DNA of 64,000 bases from Desulfobacterales bacterium (GTDB taxonomy: Bacteria > Desulfobacterota > Desulfobacteria > Desulfobacterales > SpSt-501), in assembly GCA_030834695.1 (NCBI GenBank), contig JAUQXK010000064.1, positions 1-64,000 of the forward strand, read 5' to 3'. Made by a program: the position numbers and the translations under genes. The notes under the pieces were generated by a model, which saw only the letters and a program-made list of their open reading frames with translations, was not told where the DNA came from and ran no database searches. Below are positions 20,967-28,010 of this stretch, piece after piece; position 1 is the stretch's first letter, and every line of letters starts with the position of its first letter.

Positions 20967-23150
20967 TTACATGAATTCCTGCAAGTTTCGCAACCGGTGG
21001 ATCATCTCCGCATGTTCTCCGCTGGCGCAGCGAATGAACATAGCTGTATTGGCAATGGTTTTTTTGTCATAATGAATCACCGATCCCGCGATTTTAGCCG
21101 GAAACGCCCGGCCCGATCCGCCAACCGGTTTCGAGTTAATGTGTTTCAACAGGCGCCGAGCGGTAAGGTGCGCCTCCTTGGCAGTCGTCATCGGCAGTAT
21201 CGCGATGAAAAGGTGGTTATTCATGGTTCCGATCCAATCGGCATTGCGCAACTGCTGCTGTATTTCCGATAAAAACTCAATGGTTACCTCCATCGGCACC
21301 GTGGAGTGGTCGGGAACCGTATACGATGAACTCACCGGCAAAATGGAGAAGGTGATTCCGCTTAAATCGGTTCCATATCGTGCCGAACGCGAGATTTCCT
21401 TTTCCAACAGCGCGAGGGTTATTTCTTGGTTGAACACAATGTCATGGATCGTACGACCGTCGGTTTTCGCGTTTTGCTGGACCTGCTGGATCCGCTCGAA
21501 AATTTGTTGAAAGTCGTTTTCATCCAGCCGCTGACCTCCGGTATCGGCGCGCACCGCCTTGAGGATCTTCTTCAACTCTCGGTCTTCGGACAGCCCTTCC
21601 TCAAGACGTTGCAGCAAGGTCACCTGACGCGGGTCCCGGGTGTTTAATGAGGCACTGTATGCAGCCAGCTCGGTGCGAATCGCCTGGACGCTGGCGTCCA
21701 GGCGGTCCTTTAAGCGAGCTTCCACCTGATGGACAAGCTGAGGGGCGATTCCTTCACCGCGAAGGCCTGCAACCATTTGGGTATTGAAAAAAAAGACCAG
21801 GGTGCGCAGCCGTTCGTCGCTGGCGCCCGCCAGGCCGGGTCCGACATCCAGCATTTTCGGGCTGAGGCGCTCAATGGCGTCGACCAGAACGTCGCACAAA
21901 GCCTGGCTGCCGCCTGCGTGCCGCTCGATCTCGGTGGCCAGATACAAAAACCGCGCCAGTCCGTAAGGATCCGCTTTCCATCGGTTCGCCAGATCGGCCC
22001 CGTCCAACCCGATCGCCTCAGCGCCCTGATTCAACGACTCGACCAGTTGAACATTCTGGCTATCCTGGCCCAGCCGCTTGATTAGTTCCCAGAAGTCCGA
22101 AAGCGGCATCCCTTCCGCGGCAAGGCAATCTCTCATTTTCGGCAAAAGCCGCCGCAGCTCTTGGTCCGACGTGACGATTCGCTGAAACACGAAAGCCAAT
22201 CGGTCGATGGTCGTTTTGCCCTGAGCATACTCTTTCTTCATCAATTCCAGAATGACATTATCCGATAGCTCCTCGGTCTGTTGTCGGATCTCATCGGTTG
22301 AATCCAGCAAGATTCCGAGGGACCGCTGCGCATGAATCGCCTCCTGGAGTTCGCATTTCATTTTCACCAAAGCAGCGGCCAACTCCGAAAGGCTGAGCGT
22401 CGAGCAGTCGGGCAACCCATTTCGGATTTCGCGGCCGAGCGTTGCGAGGTGGTGGGTGATGGAGCAAGACGGCCTCTGCCCTGCATTCGCCTCCCTGGCT
22501 CGGCCCGCTTCACCGCTGGCGACCAATTTTCTTGAAAACGCCACCGGGTCGATGATCAACTGCTTCAGCGACAGCCCATGATCGACCTCCTCCATGAGCA
22601 ATTTTCCCGCAATCAAGCCCAACGCTTCCTGGTGTTGCCGCGATGCATCCAATTCATCGCTGAGCGTCTCTGTCTTCGTGACGGCCGATTTTGAAACGAT
22701 CTGATCATCCTCCGTCACCTTCTGGTAGGAAACGTGATTGATACGAATATGCGTGATCGGAAGCGATCCGAAAGCGGTTTTCATCAAATCGGCGGTCGGG
22801 TAGTTGCGGCTGTCCAAAAATATTCTTATGAAGTCCTCGACTTCTCGTTTCTGAACATCTCGAAGCAATGCGATCGATGTCACCTTTGCCTTCTTAAAGT
22901 GGGATGACATCTTGAAATAATTCAGGCTCGGATCCAGCGGTTCGTCCTCAAGAAAAAACTGGCCTCGGCTGTAAAGCAGCACCACCGGTGAAGCGGCCTT
23001 GAGCAAATCGCAAATGGAACGATAAAACTCCTCAACCGCCTGGACCGAATACGGATGGTCCGAGCCATACATGGAGACACGGTTAAACATGAGCACGAAC
23101 GATTTGCCTGCCTTGTGATGGCTCTTGCGGCTGGAGTGCAATTTTATCAT
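20967..23150 (-). CDS. Large helical signalling protein with degenerate GGDEF-like C-terminus
   Basis: The protein is 727 residues. The N-terminus (about 15-165) has a LFNRVSMYGSDHPYSVQAVEEFY start, an LYSRGQFFLEDEPLD strand pair and an IRINHVSYQKV end, a layout seen before HEAT or HD domains in deltaproteobacterial signalling proteins. The middle is long alpha-helical. The C-terminus (about 565-720) resembles a GGDEF fold (LLEKEISRSARYGTDLSGITFSIL), but the catalytic motif position reads MNNHLFIAIL, so cyclic di-GMP synthesis is unlikely. The ATG overlaps the kinase stop (ATGA), so the genes are coupled. A frame 21 codons longer would run into the kinase gene and is not supported. Confidence 0.72.
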   Translation of the reverse strand: MIKLHSSRKSHHKAGKSFVLMFNRVSMYGSDHPYSVQAVEEFYRSICDLLKAASPVVLLYSRGQFFLEDEPLDPSLNYFKMSSHFKKAKVTSIALLRDVQKREVEDFIRIFLDSRNYPTADLMKTAFGSLPITHIRINHVSYQKVTEDDQIVSKSAVTKTETLSDELDASRQHQEALGLIAGKLLMEEVDHGLSLKQLIIDPVAFSRKLVASGEAGRAREANAGQRPSCSITHHLATLGREIRNGLPDCSTLSLSELAAALVKMKCELQEAIHAQRSLGILLDSTDEIRQQTEELSDNVILELMKKEYAQGKTTIDRLAFVFQRIVTSDQELRRLLPKMRDCLAAEGMPLSDFWELIKRLGQDSQNVQLVESLNQGAEAIGLDGADLANRWKADPYGLARFLYLATEIERHAGGSQALCDVLVDAIERLSPKMLDVGPGLAGASDERLRTLVFFFNTQMVAGLRGEGIAPQLVHQVEARLKDRLDASVQAIRTELAAYSASLNTRDPRQVTLLQRLEEGLSEDRELKKILKAVRADTGGQRLDENDFQQIFERIQQVQQNAKTDGRTIHDIVFNQEITLALLEKEISRSARYGTDLSGITFSILPVSSSYTVPDHSTVPMEVTIEFLSEIQQQLRNADWIGTMNNHLFIAILPMTTAKEAHLTARRLLKHINSKPVGGSGRAFPAKIAGSVIHYDKKTIANTAMFIRCASGEHAEMIHRLRNLQEFM

Positions 23151-24070
23151 TTTTCGTCGTATTCGATATGTTTCCGTCCATAGCTGCGCAGCGCATCCAA
23201 AAATTGGCTGCACGTAGGATATCGCTGCTGCGGGGCCGGCGACGTCGCAATGGCCACGATATCGTCAATCTCCGGATGGAGTCGCGGATTGACCTGGGAC
23301 GGCGAGCGGGTAAAAACAGCATGGCCGTTGACTTTTTTCCGGAGCAAATCTTCGTATGACGAGCAGGCAGCCAACGGCAGCTTATTAACCAGAAGCCTGA
23401 AAAGCAGCATGCCGGCGGCATAGACATCGGCGCGCGCGTCGGTTTCGGCAAGGGTGATTTGCTCAGGAGCCATATAGAGAGGGCTCCCGCGAAGCACCGG
23501 ACGGGCGCTGGCCGGATGACCGACCATTCGTGAGATCCCGAAGTCGGTGATGATGGGTATATGGGCAGCGGCGCACATCAGAATGTTCTCAGGCTTGATG
23601 TCGAGATGAATAACCCCTCGACGATGAGCATACCCCAGAGCTTCCAGGAGTTGCCTGAGAACCGAAAGGGTCGTTTTCACTGGGAGGATGCGCCGGGGCG
23701 GCAAAAGGTTCTTCGAGATCCTGTCGAGAACAGCCGCCAGAGACGTCCCATCAATCAACTGCATGGTGAAATAACGGAAAAACTCATTCTCGCCGATATC
23801 ATAAACCGGCACGATGTTCGGATGCGACAGCCCGGCGACCGCCTCGGCTTCCTGCTCAAAGAGGCGGATGGAATCATCCGTCCACAAACACTTCGGCAGC
23901 ACTTTCACTGCAATTCGTCGCTTTAAGCTTTGCTGATACGCGATGAAAACGATACCCATGTTTCCGCGCGCCAATTCTTTCACGATGGTCGCGTTGCCGA
24001 TGGTCATACCGATGGCATGAGTGGCATCATATGGAGGCAAGTGAGATCCATGCAGCGCTGCGACAGTCAT
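23147..24070 (-). CDS. Serine/threonine protein kinase (Hanks type)
   Basis: The protein is 307 residues, a soluble kinase domain with little else. The glycine loop ARGNMGIVF is present, with K56 in IAVKVL, a helix-C glutamate near 76, the catalytic loop HLDIKPENIL (D157), DFG (176-178) and SPLYMAPEQ. HLD replaces HRD, so activation-loop phosphorylation control may be weak or absent. No transmembrane helix or PASTA domain follows. AAGAGG sits 5 bases before the ATG at 24070; ATG and GTG codons just upstream are too close to it. First gene of the three-gene kinase / GGDEF-like / FHA unit. Confidence 0.93.
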   Translation of the reverse strand: MTVAALHGSHLPPYDATHAIGMTIGNATIVKELARGNMGIVFIAYQQSLKRRIAVKVLPKCLWTDDSIRLFEQEAEAVAGLSHPNIVPVYDIGENEFFRYFTMQLIDGTSLAAVLDRISKNLLPPRRILPVKTTLSVLRQLLEALGYAHRRGVIHLDIKPENILMCAAAHIPIITDFGISRMVGHPASARPVLRGSPLYMAPEQITLAETDARADVYAAGMLLFRLLVNKLPLAACSSYEDLLRKKVNGHAVFTRSPSQVNPRLHPEIDDIVAIATSPAPQQRYPTCSQFLDALRSYGRKHIEYDEK

Positions 24071-24323
24071 CATCACCTCTTGCCCGGTGGGCCGACTGAA
24101 ATAATCTTCCGATGCATGGTTCTATATTCGGCAACTTTCCTGAAATCTAAAGAAAATCAGCTTAAAGCACGGTTGGTGACCGGCTCCGGTGTAAGGCGGT
24201 GTCGGCATCCATTTTCAACTGCGTCGCTTCCCGCGGGGTTGAAACCTGGCCGGAATTGTGGTGTAATGTTTAACGGAGCTTGATTAGCTTGGATTGACAC
24301 TTCTCAAGCCAGGCCAGACGGTT

Positions 24324-24698
24324 ATGGAACATATTCTGATTATTGATGATGAAGCCCCCATTCGCTCCATGATTCGACTCATCCTGGAGCGCGCCGGCTA
24401 TACGGTGGCCGAAGCGTCGGATGGCATCGAAGGGATCCGATGTTTTCGTGAGAAACCGACGGACCTGATCATCACCGACCTGATTATGCCCAACAAGGAC
24501 GGGATCGGTATGATCCTTGAGTTGAAAAAGGAGTTCGCCTCTGCCAAAATCATTGCCATGTCCGGGGGGGGCTTGAACCGTCCGGAGGGATATCTGCGTG
24601 GAGCCAAGAAGCTGGGGGCGGCGTATACCCTATCGAAGCCCATCAACCGGCAAGAGCTTCTAAGAGCCGTCAAAGACACTCTCAAGGGTCAAGGCTGA
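24324..24698 (+). CDS. Single-domain response regulator (CheY-like)
   Basis: The protein is 124 residues, a receiver domain alone. Acidic pair D8/D9, phospho-acceptor D52 in ITDLIMP, S80 in AMSGGG and K105 in SKPI are all present. There is no output domain, so it acts through protein contact. The ATG at 24324 gives the standard N-terminus; an upstream TTG in frame adds 10 residues. It is divergent from the Ser/Thr kinase across a 253-base gap in which I see no other gene. No histidine kinase is nearby. Confidence 0.92.
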   Translation: MEHILIIDDEAPIRSMIRLILERAGYTVAEASDGIEGIRCFREKPTDLIITDLIMPNKDGIGMILELKKEFASAKIIAMSGGGLNRPEGYLRGAKKLGAAYTLSKPINRQELLRAVKDTLKGQG

Positions 24699-24848
24699 AT
24701 TTCCCACGCGGACCCTCCCTTCCTTCCCGACCATCCCAGCGAATCCTGCTGTGCCAGCCCGATTGTCAAGCTCTTTCGTTCGTTCTAAAAAGCTGTTATA
24801 TTAAAAATTTTTATGGTTCAGCGACCGTCATTCGGGGTGTTTCGCGAC

Positions 24849-25688
24849 ATGGTTTTTTCACTGAGGGACATAAGAGTCGGCCGGCAGCGAACGCAATACC
24901 TGCGCTTCGCCATGACCGTCCTGATCGGGTTGTTGTCGGCCATAGTCGGGCGCACATGGGGCGAGGCTGCGGACACGATTTATTTCAGAGACGGAATGCG
25001 CACCGTATGCGAGGGCAACGCTTGGGAAAAGGGAGACGAAATCCACTGTGAATATGACGGAGGGTTGCTGGTTTATCGAAAATCCGACGTGGCGCGCATC
25101 GAAAAAGGTCGATCCGTCGAGCCGGAGTTGGATTCGAAGAATGTCCAGGAGGCCGCCCCTCCGCCTGCCCGCGTAACGCCACCCCTTCCGGCACCAGCAC
25201 CGGGAATCGCTTCACCCGCATCCCCCCCAAAACCACCGGGCATCGCCTTTTACGACCCGCGGCGAGCCAAGAAATACTGGACCAGTGAAACTCGCCACCA
25301 TGATACCTTTCGGGATGCGATCTCGGCTTTATCGGAAGAATTCAACCGGCCGGCCGCATGGGTCGAGGAAAACATGGGGGACAGCAACGAACTGAACGAT
25401 GTGCGGGAAACCCTTGCTGTGCGCCTTTCGGGATCCTCCGCAACGAACGCCGACCCGGCCGCCGCGCCGGAAGCCGCCATTGAGTTTTACAACCCGCGAC
25501 GCGCCAAAAAATACATGACCAGCCCGGATGTCCGACACGACAGCTTCCAGGAAGCCGTGGACGCCTTGGCGCGCGACTTCGACAAGCCGGCCGATTGGGT
25601 GGAACGGAACATGGGAGATTCCAACGATGTCGATCAGATCCGCAAGAGCCTGAGAAAAAGTGCCCAAGAAGCCGGAATGGATCGATGA
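24849..25688 (+). CDS. Exported or anchored protein with a tandem 58-residue repeat
   Basis: The protein is 279 residues. A hydrophobic segment (about 20-38, ending WGEA) is a signal peptide or anchor. Residues 42-88 (DTIYFRDGM...ARIEK) resemble the periplasmic segment of the kinase-like protein at 16.9 kb. A Pro/Ala-rich linker (about 103-131) leads to two repeats at 132-189 and 211-268 with 32 identical positions of 58, each opening FY-[DN]-PRRAKKY and ending WVE-NMGDSN. I do not recognise the repeat. An upstream ATG (24813) would add 12 residues but has no ribosome-binding site; the ATG at 24849 has GGGG 11 bases upstream. Confidence 0.65.
   Translation: MVFSLRDIRVGRQRTQYLRFAMTVLIGLLSAIVGRTWGEAADTIYFRDGMRTVCEGNAWEKGDEIHCEYDGGLLVYRKSDVARIEKGRSVEPELDSKNVQEAAPPPARVTPPLPAPAPGIASPASPPKPPGIAFYDPRRAKKYWTSETRHHDTFRDAISALSEEFNRPAAWVEENMGDSNELNDVRETLAVRLSGSSATNADPAAAPEAAIEFYNPRRAKKYMTSPDVRHDSFQEAVDALARDFDKPADWVERNMGDSNDVDQIRKSLRKSAQEAGMDR
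25242..25652 (+). repeat. Tandem coding repeat, two units of 174 bp
   Basis: Unit 1 is 25242..25415 and unit 2 is 25479..25652, separated by a 63-base Ala-rich linker. The units encode 58 residues each, with 32 identities. Conserved positions cluster at the start (FY, PRRAKKY, TS) and end (WVE, NMGDSN). Predicted helical middle sections vary more. Confidence 0.85.
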
Positions 25689-25845: not shown

Positions 25846-26403
25846 ATGCCTACATTGAACCGGGATCTTGTCATAGTTTTCCGGATTGTCGCCAGCTGCT
25901 TAACGGCCGGATTACTCATATTCTTCATTTCCGCCTTTTCCGGTGAAGACCTGCTCAAGAACCACAGCACCATCAAGGATCTGGACAAAATCTTGGGTGA
26001 AATTTCCACCGAACTGAACGGCAGAATCGAGCAGAGAACGCGGCAATTGGGCGAAGCGCCGAAAAAAAACCCCTATCGCAAATTTTACTGCGCTGAATTG
26101 GCCAAGGAGATCCACGAAGTATCGTATCTGACGGAAAAGCAGAAGATCATGTTCGACGCTTACAGCGTGCGCGATTTCGAGAATAAATCCAAAAAACTGG
26201 TTTCCTATTCCGAAACGGCCAACGTGGAGGGTCTGCTGGAAGAGCTCGATATTGTTAAACGCGAGCTCAAGAACTCGGTGAACCTCATCGACACGCGCAG
26301 AGAAAAATTGGTCCGCCAGCGGACCGCCTATCTGGTTTTGTTTTTCATTCTTTGGATCGCCATCTACTTTTATTACGGCCGGGGCTTCATACGGAGTCGA
26401 TAA
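25846..26403 (+). CDS. Two-transmembrane helical protein, function unknown
   Basis: The protein is 185 residues. A membrane helix (about 9-30) is followed by a largely helical region (about 35-155) rich in charged heptads, then a second membrane helix (about 160-178). The two helices would anchor a periplasmic helical domain, a topology shared with sensor input domains, but no HAMP or output domain follows. One cysteine (YCAEL) lies near residue 83. GGGAA lies immediately before the ATG and AAGGA about 10 bases upstream. The ExeA-OmpA gene starts 77 bases later and is probably cotranscribed. Not a family I recognise. Confidence 0.6.
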   Translation: MPTLNRDLVIVFRIVASCLTAGLLIFFISAFSGEDLLKNHSTIKDLDKILGEISTELNGRIEQRTRQLGEAPKKNPYRKFYCAELAKEIHEVSYLTEKQKIMFDAYSVRDFENKSKKLVSYSETANVEGLLEELDIVKRELKNSVNLIDTRREKLVRQRTAYLVLFFILWIAIYFYYGRGFIRSR

Positions 26404-26480: not shown

Positions 26481-28010
26481 ATGTACCTCTCATTTTATCA
26501 ACTGACGCTTAAGCCCTTTCAAATCACCACGGATCCCAAATTTCTGTGGCTGGGGGAAAAGCATACTGAAGCGCTGGCTACCCTCAAGTACGGCATTCAA
26601 GAAGACAAGGGCTTCCTTTTGCTCACCGGTGATGTCGGTACCGGCAAGACCGCCCTGATCAAGCTGTTGGTCAAAACCATCGACGTGGCGGCGATCGTGG
26701 CAACCATCCCGGATCCCGGAATGGAGGCCATCGACTTCTTTAATTTTTTAGCGGCCGAGTTTCAAATGAATCGCCGATTCGCCTCCAAAGGCGAGTTTCT
26801 GATCGAGTTCAAGCAATTTTTGCTCAAGGCTTATTCCTCCCGGCAGAAAGTGCTGCTGATCATCGACGAGGCGCAACGGCTAACCATTGAGATGCTCGAA
26901 CAGGTTCGATTGCTGTCGAATATCGAGCTCGATAACCGCAAGCTGATCAACATCTTCTTTGTCGGCCAAACCGAATTTAATCGGGTTTTGTTGGATGAGC
27001 GCAGCAAGGCGGTCCGTCAGCGGATCACGGTAAGCTACCATATCGAACCGCTGAGGGAAACCGAAACACCGCTGTACATGCGTCACCGCCTGAATGTCGC
27101 CGGATCGCGCCGAGAAATTTTTACGCCGGAGGCGGTTCGGCAGGTCCATGCATTCTCGGGCGGCTATCCGCGCCTGATCAATATCATTTGCGACCACGCG
27201 TTGCTGACCGGCTACGCGGGGGGGGCGAAATCCATCGACCACAACCTCATCCGGGATTGTGAAAAGGAACTGCGCTTGCCGGACCCGCCCCCGGCGTCGG
27301 GTGCCTACGCTTCCAGCGGCCCTCCGAACCCATCTGCGTCAAATGCGATGGCACCGGCCGGTTCGACTCGGACCTTCAGCTGGAAACTGCCGGTTTCACT
27401 GGTCCTCCTGCTCCTCTTGGGCTTTACCAGCCTGATGATTTACCAATACCGGTCCCCCGAATCCCAGCGATGGTCGTTGGAAGACATAGCACCGCAGACT
27501 TACAAGGGTCGGTCCGCTGCACCGACGGCGGAAGAACCTACGGGGGCCGCTGAAGGCGACGAGCCTTCGGATGTCCAACCCGCTTCAAAGCCAATTCCGC
27601 CCGTCGCGGTTGCAGGCTCAGGAAGCACGCCGGAGGCGGTTTCTTCAGAGGCGTTGGCCGTGAACCCCTTTGCCCGTGGACGGGTGATCATCTTCTTTCC
27701 TTACAATTCGAACGATCTCACCCCGCAGGCCCTCGCCGCCTTGGACCAGATTGCGCTGTTTCTTAAATCGAACCGGGACACGAAAGCCAGCATCCGGGGT
27801 TACACGGATGCGGTGGGTTCCATCACCTACAACATCAGCGTGTCACAGTTTAGGGCCAACTCGATCAAGAGTTATCTGGCGGGAAAGGGCGTCAACTCGT
27901 CGAACCTGATCGCGGTGGGGTTGGGCCCCAAGAGCCCCATTGCTTCCAACGACACCCCAGAAGGCCGACAACAGAACCGGCGCGTTGAAATCGAACTCGG
28001 CCAGGAATGA
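26481..28010 (+). CDS. ExeA-like AAA ATPase fused to a transmembrane helix and OmpA peptidoglycan-binding domain
   Basis: The protein is 509 residues. It opens MYLSFYQLTLKPF as ExeA/GspA-type proteins do, with Walker A GDVGTGKT (50-57), Walker B VLLIIDEAQ (124-132) and an HAFSGGYPRLIN sensor segment. A Pro/Ala-rich stretch leads to one membrane helix (about 302-322), a second low-complexity linker, then an OmpA C-terminal domain (about 395-505) with IRGYTDAVGSITYN, SQFRANSIKSYL and NRRVEIEL, which binds peptidoglycan. ExeA normally ends in a different peptidoglycan-binding domain, so this is a variant of the same logic: ATPase inside, wall anchor outside. The ATG at 26481 fits the family; a longer frame overlaps the preceding gene. 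Confidence 0.88.
   Translation: MYLSFYQLTLKPFQITTDPKFLWLGEKHTEALATLKYGIQEDKGFLLLTGDVGTGKTALIKLLVKTIDVAAIVATIPDPGMEAIDFFNFLAAEFQMNRRFASKGEFLIEFKQFLLKAYSSRQKVLLIIDEAQRLTIEMLEQVRLLSNIELDNRKLINIFFVGQTEFNRVLLDERSKAVRQRITVSYHIEPLRETETPLYMRHRLNVAGSRREIFTPEAVRQVHAFSGGYPRLINIICDHALLTGYAGGAKSIDHNLIRDCEKELRLPDPPPASGAYASSGPPNPSASNAMAPAGSTRTFSWKLPVSLVLLLLLGFTSLMIYQYRSPESQRWSLEDIAPQTYKGRSAAPTAEEPTGAAEGDEPSDVQPASKPIPPVAVAGSGSTPEAVSSEALAVNPFARGRVIIFFPYNSNDLTPQALAALDQIALFLKSNRDTKASIRGYTDAVGSITYNISVSQFRANSIKSYLAGKGVNSSNLIAVGLGPKSPIASNDTPEGRQQNRRVEIELGQE

Follow-up and report, generated by a model that had tools for sequence, protein, structure and literature searches.

What does an exported protein with two copies of an unfamiliar 58-residue module do in the envelope of a Desulfobacterales bacterium? 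The question is raised by a gene in the window, the whole 64,000-nucleotide stretch of contig JAUQXK010000064.1 that was analysed. The original prediction for this gene held that the module is undescribed and that it is carried behind an export signal and a proline-rich stalk, possibly to bind a wall or protein partner. A partner of one or the other kind is plausible, and the structure of the protein, the distribution of its domains and the genes that accompany it suggest what such a partner might be.

The gene spans 24849–25688 on the forward strand, on which all the features of the protein described here also lie, and encodes 279 residues, as judged from the open reading frame and 17 aligned homologues. 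It starts with the ATG at 24849, and its stop codon ends at 25688; an in-frame ATG at 24813, upstream of this start, was rejected, having no visible ribosome site and no support from the closest homologue. The export signal (24849–24968) is likely of the signal peptidase I type, without a lipobox. It comprises an Arg-containing n-region and a hydrophobic stretch, then the sequence GEAA/D; a helix is predicted at residues 6–36, and Ala-Asp comes directly after in most homologues. The signal is thus present as had been predicted and is kept in homologues, but the suggestion of display on the outside is not supported. The earlier layout, a signal and then a proline-rich stalk, is right as to both elements but omits the domain lying between them, a predicted Sm/SH3-like barrel (N-domain, 24969–25106) recognized by a profile match and by predicted strands, with pLDDT mostly >90 over the block. 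The proline-rich linker (25107–25244; 30% Pro over 46 residues) has low pLDDT. Promoter and terminator scans gave results at chance level only and are uninformative as to the operon.

The two tandem units, at 25248–25421 and 25485–25658, are evident from self-alignment, from the unit search in class genomes and from the phylum search, and the repeat FY[DN]PRRAKKY...WVE.NMGDSN is real. An inter-unit linker (25422–25484) places the unit starts 79 residues apart, a spacing that varies in Desulfosarcina-type proteins. The strong similarity of the units stands, although the figure of 32 shared residues given earlier is 31 of 58 when counted as ungapped identity. Their Smith-Waterman score is 186, against 23.2±4.4 (maximum 54) for 2000 shuffles. 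At the DNA level the units are 60% identical, codon position 2 being the most conserved (72%) and position 3 the least (43%), and the same codon is used at 14 of the 31 identical residues; this pattern indicates an old, protein-level repeat. A DNA repeat finder detected no repeat. Recent duplication of the second unit is rejected by the unit tree, which is informative within the window's genus, deeper branches not being resolved by it: in that genus all first units group apart from the second units (97/88 and 87/71), and the duplication is therefore older than the genus.

The 58-residue unit is a genuine, undescribed small domain family. Positions Y4, P6, R8, A26, L30 and N49 are invariant, and F3, R7, Y12, W13, W40 and L58 nearly so. 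The claim that the module is undescribed holds against Pfam-A, NCBIfam, PHROGs and PDB sequences; in the profile searches that were run, no known Pfam domain matching the motifs came up. When 34 units were compared with Pfam and PHROGs, the only matches were scattered and at chance level; the full protein matched no Pfam family at E up to 1 and only chance-level entries of NCBIfam, and a PDB sequence search found no family matching the unit. Matches of the unit to NrdI (0.0075), wHTH-HSP90 (0.005), H-NS and HNH_repeat were each made by a single sequence and were regarded as accidental. A literature search found no publication that describes the motif, and none on a GspA of OmpA type in this group.

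Predicted from the 34 aligned units, a single unit has three helices preceded by a short, bridged segment at its N-terminus (pLDDT 96.6, pTM 0.80), and the model suggests an autonomous three-helix module. In the AlphaFold2 model of the whole protein, built from the 17 homologues, the N-domain and both units have high confidence and the linkers low confidence, as does the mutual arrangement of the domains (pTM 0.31). Comparison of the single unit with PDB folds gave nothing significant (Foldseek E at best 2.5, VIA Z at best 3.5), a lack of match that is no proof of a new fold. The best VIA match is a ParR/RacA-like domain (rmsd 2.2 over 40 residues), and this weak likeness, together with scattered weak HTH matches in Pfam, could be read to mean that the unit is a diverged winged-helix or HTH nucleic acid-binding fold, either exported and acting on periplasmic DNA or part of a protein that is not exported at all. 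Every one of these scores lies in the chance range, however, and the signal sequence is conserved, so that we regard nucleic acid binding as very improbable.

The N-domain comprises about 46 residues with the pattern D.I.F.DGM.T.C..AWE...E..CEY.G..L.Y.K.DV.RIEK, and its two cysteines are conserved in nearer relatives. It is modelled as a beta barrel, and among PDB folds it comes closest to YgdR-type lipoproteins, followed by Hfq; the VIA-align Z scores for YgdR and its relatives (6.8–7.5) are near the usual best match of unrelated models. The N-domain may resemble YgdI/YgdR (DUF903) in its predicted SH3/Sm-like fold (Z 7.5, rmsd 2.2 over 51 residues) but differs in sequence (14% identity), in the absence of a lipobox cysteine and in being only one part of a larger protein, and 13 N-domains searched against Pfam gave no DUF903 match. 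A match of the N-domain profile to 21nr (TLP-IPT) was dismissed as chance, since it consisted of four 5-bit fragments of a repeated chain. Matches to the N-domain at E 1e-4 occur in 70 of 311 class genomes, where the domain is combined with SNase, TPR/peptidase MA, ankyrin-like (by eye) or secretin N0 parts. A relative of the N-domain is fused to GspD-N0/STN at one locus (L173; 1e-8, tested), and three others (L183, L186, L188) appear similar by eye. Given this breadth and variety of partners, the N-domain is a mobile periplasmic module that is not specific to this ATPase system; it is exported and widespread, lacks an entry in Pfam and occurs in these fusions in Desulfobacterales (24969–25106 in the window; L173, L182, L183 and L187–L190).

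The unit, unlike the N-domain, is specific to a system of three genes. The second of these (25846–26403, forward strand) encodes TM25.8, a protein of 185 residues with a hydrophobic segment near each end and, by sequence and Pfam, no known family. The third (26481–28010, forward strand) encodes ExeA_OmpA, a GspA/ExeA-like AAA ATPase (AAA_22, 1.9e-24) with one central hydrophobic, transmembrane segment and a C-terminal OmpA domain (1.4e-19). It has the Walker A sequence GDVGTGKT and the Walker B sequence IIDEAQ, and TIGR03015 matches its ATPase region over the whole model at 1.9e-76, though below the cut-off (257 versus 324.5 bits). Its OmpA domain has the Asp and Arg of the family's peptidoglycan motif.

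Co-occurrence with the genes at 25.8 and 26.5 kb, which the original prediction had proposed as a check, is strongly borne out. TM25.8 is found in 29 of 389 class genomes, among them 24 of the 25 that carry the repeat (hypergeometric 2.6e-32, uncorrected for kinship), and it adjoins ExeA_OmpA at every locus long enough to judge. In most loci the three genes lie close to one another, and two gene orders recur across several Desulfobacterales families: response regulator, repeat gene, TM25.8 and ExeA_OmpA, as in the window, where the ATPase gene is two genes downstream of the repeat gene; and TM25.8, ExeA_OmpA and repeat gene, as in Desulfosarcina-type loci, where it is directly upstream. In two genomes (G001 and G233) all three genes are kept although the repeat gene is megabases from the other two or on a different contig. 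Of five genomes with TM25.8 and no unit, two have a contig end within or just past the ATPase gene, a third shows an N-domain gene with masked bases at the expected site, and two have none there. The connection of the repeat gene with the ATPase module thus has good support.

The gene adjoining the repeat gene on its other side encodes a single-domain response regulator (24294–24698, forward strand; identified by Pfam and locus comparison), and this might be taken to mean that the repeat protein senses or binds a ligand in the periplasm and passes the signal to the regulator and the products of the nearby kinase and FHA genes. In several families besides the window's genus the two genes are adjacent, even away from the ATPase locus (L017, L022, L107). 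Yet the regulator is missing from Desulfosarcina-type loci while TM25.8 and ExeA_OmpA remain, the cluster has no receptor kinase, and of the loci inspected only that of the nearest relative (L016) keeps the kinase and FHA genes, so a sensory role seems to us quite unlikely. Between the Ser/Thr kinase and FHA-domain genes lies a 748-residue protein (20967–23213) without a Pfam match, and it is as a trio that these genes are kept in that relative. In genome G274 a further copy of the repeat gene adjoins a response regulator (L107, 7107–8208), apart from the copy at its ATPase locus (L106, 8150–8986); each copy has about 100 masked bases, in the repeat region of the second and in the N-domain of the ATPase-locus copy.

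The system is narrowly distributed. All 25 class genomes with the unit belong to the order Desulfobacterales, and the unit nearly always occurs as a pair. A scan of 84,980 species genomes yielded 17 loci with unit homologues, whose titles refer to Desulfobacterales or one of its subgroups, the remainder saying only "Deltaproteobacteria". A search of 395 phylum-wide genomes recovered the genome of the window and nothing else besides partial matches at 0.001–0.01 that were taken as chance, and searches of viral and plasmid sequences gave no copies of the repeat protein.

The conserved three-gene envelope module is known in kind, a GspA-like ATPase with a periplasmic adaptor, but not in its present version. 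ExeA binds peptidoglycan and together with ExeB is required for secretin assembly, in which ExeB contacts the N0/N1 domains of the secretin (PMC4098917). OutB ties the secretin to the membrane and the wall, and the domain make-up of GspB proteins varies widely (PMC9239104). Like GspB, ExeB and OutB (T2SSB, PF16537), the repeat protein has a GspA-like AAA ATPase as its companion in the gene module and a Pro-rich linker leading to C-terminal periplasmic domains; in both cases the partner ATPase has a domain of peptidoglycan-binding type. Unlike GspB, it has no HR/T2SSB domain and a cleavable-type signal in place of a transmembrane anchor, and it has in addition an Sm-like N-domain, two new units and a third, two-transmembrane partner. 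The missing HR domain places the repeat protein outside the GspB family, though a GspB-like way of working is compatible with it. ExeA_OmpA for its part shares with GspA/ExeA the order of AAA ATPase, transmembrane segment and periplasmic domain of peptidoglycan-binding type, but its OmpA domain stands where the genome's canonical GspA has PG_binding_1 and C39-like parts. The XrtA/PEP-CTERM ATPase (TIGR03015)/ExeA family is likewise similar in its ATPase domain, the OmpA C-terminus being the difference. The genome holds 11 ATPases of ExeA/TIGR03015 type (26481–28010 and others on contigs including C107, C69, C10, C71, C74 and C129); among them, the one on C71 (L153) is also fused to OmpA but has no repeat protein with it.

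From the GspB-like place of the repeat protein in a parallel module, and from the relatives of its N-domain fused to GspD-N0/STN, we infer an adaptor to a secretin or similar machine. ExeA_OmpA would sit in the inner membrane and grip peptidoglycan by its OmpA domain. The repeat protein would work with TM25.8 and ExeA_OmpA as a periplasmic adaptor, its Sm-like N-domain and two units serving as paired binding sites, and would connect the ATPase complex, anchored in the wall, with a further envelope machine. That machine is probably a secretin, the role being the one that GspB has for GspA. The chances seem to us evenly balanced that it is such an adaptor, scaffolding a secretin or other machine at the wall; the partners, their stoichiometry and the secretin link are what we infer beyond the gene neighbourhood. 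A canonical GspA (AAA and PG_binding_1), with GspB (T2SSB) directly after it, is encoded in the same genome; its parallel architecture favours this reading, but the prior existence of such a pair counts against it, as does the lack of a T2SSB/HR domain in the repeat protein. OmpA-type ATPase loci without the repeat protein (G098, G195, G054 and C71 of the window's own genome, G000) imply that the adaptor is dispensable there. A further point against it is that the repeat-gene cluster has no secretin gene, and the presence of secretins fails as a marker: each of the 18 genomes tested has them, whether or not it carries the repeat, and so they do not discriminate.

The protein might instead be a wall anchor in its own right, its two units binding peptidoglycan or another glycan and the ATPase providing a second, independent anchor. 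It is exported, it has a partner with an OmpA domain, and F, Y, P, R, R, Y and W are invariant or nearly so within the first 13 positions of the unit. These aromatics may be just core, however; the unit matches no known wall-binding family in Pfam, and the partner already brings a peptidoglycan-binding domain. Direct wall binding by the units is thus unlikely, though it merits some weight. It is possible, if doubtful, that the unit is a new small fold and that, with TM25.8 and the OmpA-type ATPase, it defines an envelope-assembly system of three parts, hitherto undescribed, that parallels GspAB and is private to Desulfobacterales.

The 58-residue unit adds a well-bounded domain family, with 34 aligned units and a confidently predicted fold, that comes with a specific set of partners. 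If the GspB-like reading is true, the module would be a second, independently built means of linking an envelope machine with an ATPase that binds peptidoglycan, and this in the Desulfobacterales, environmentally important bacteria whose secretion systems have been little studied.
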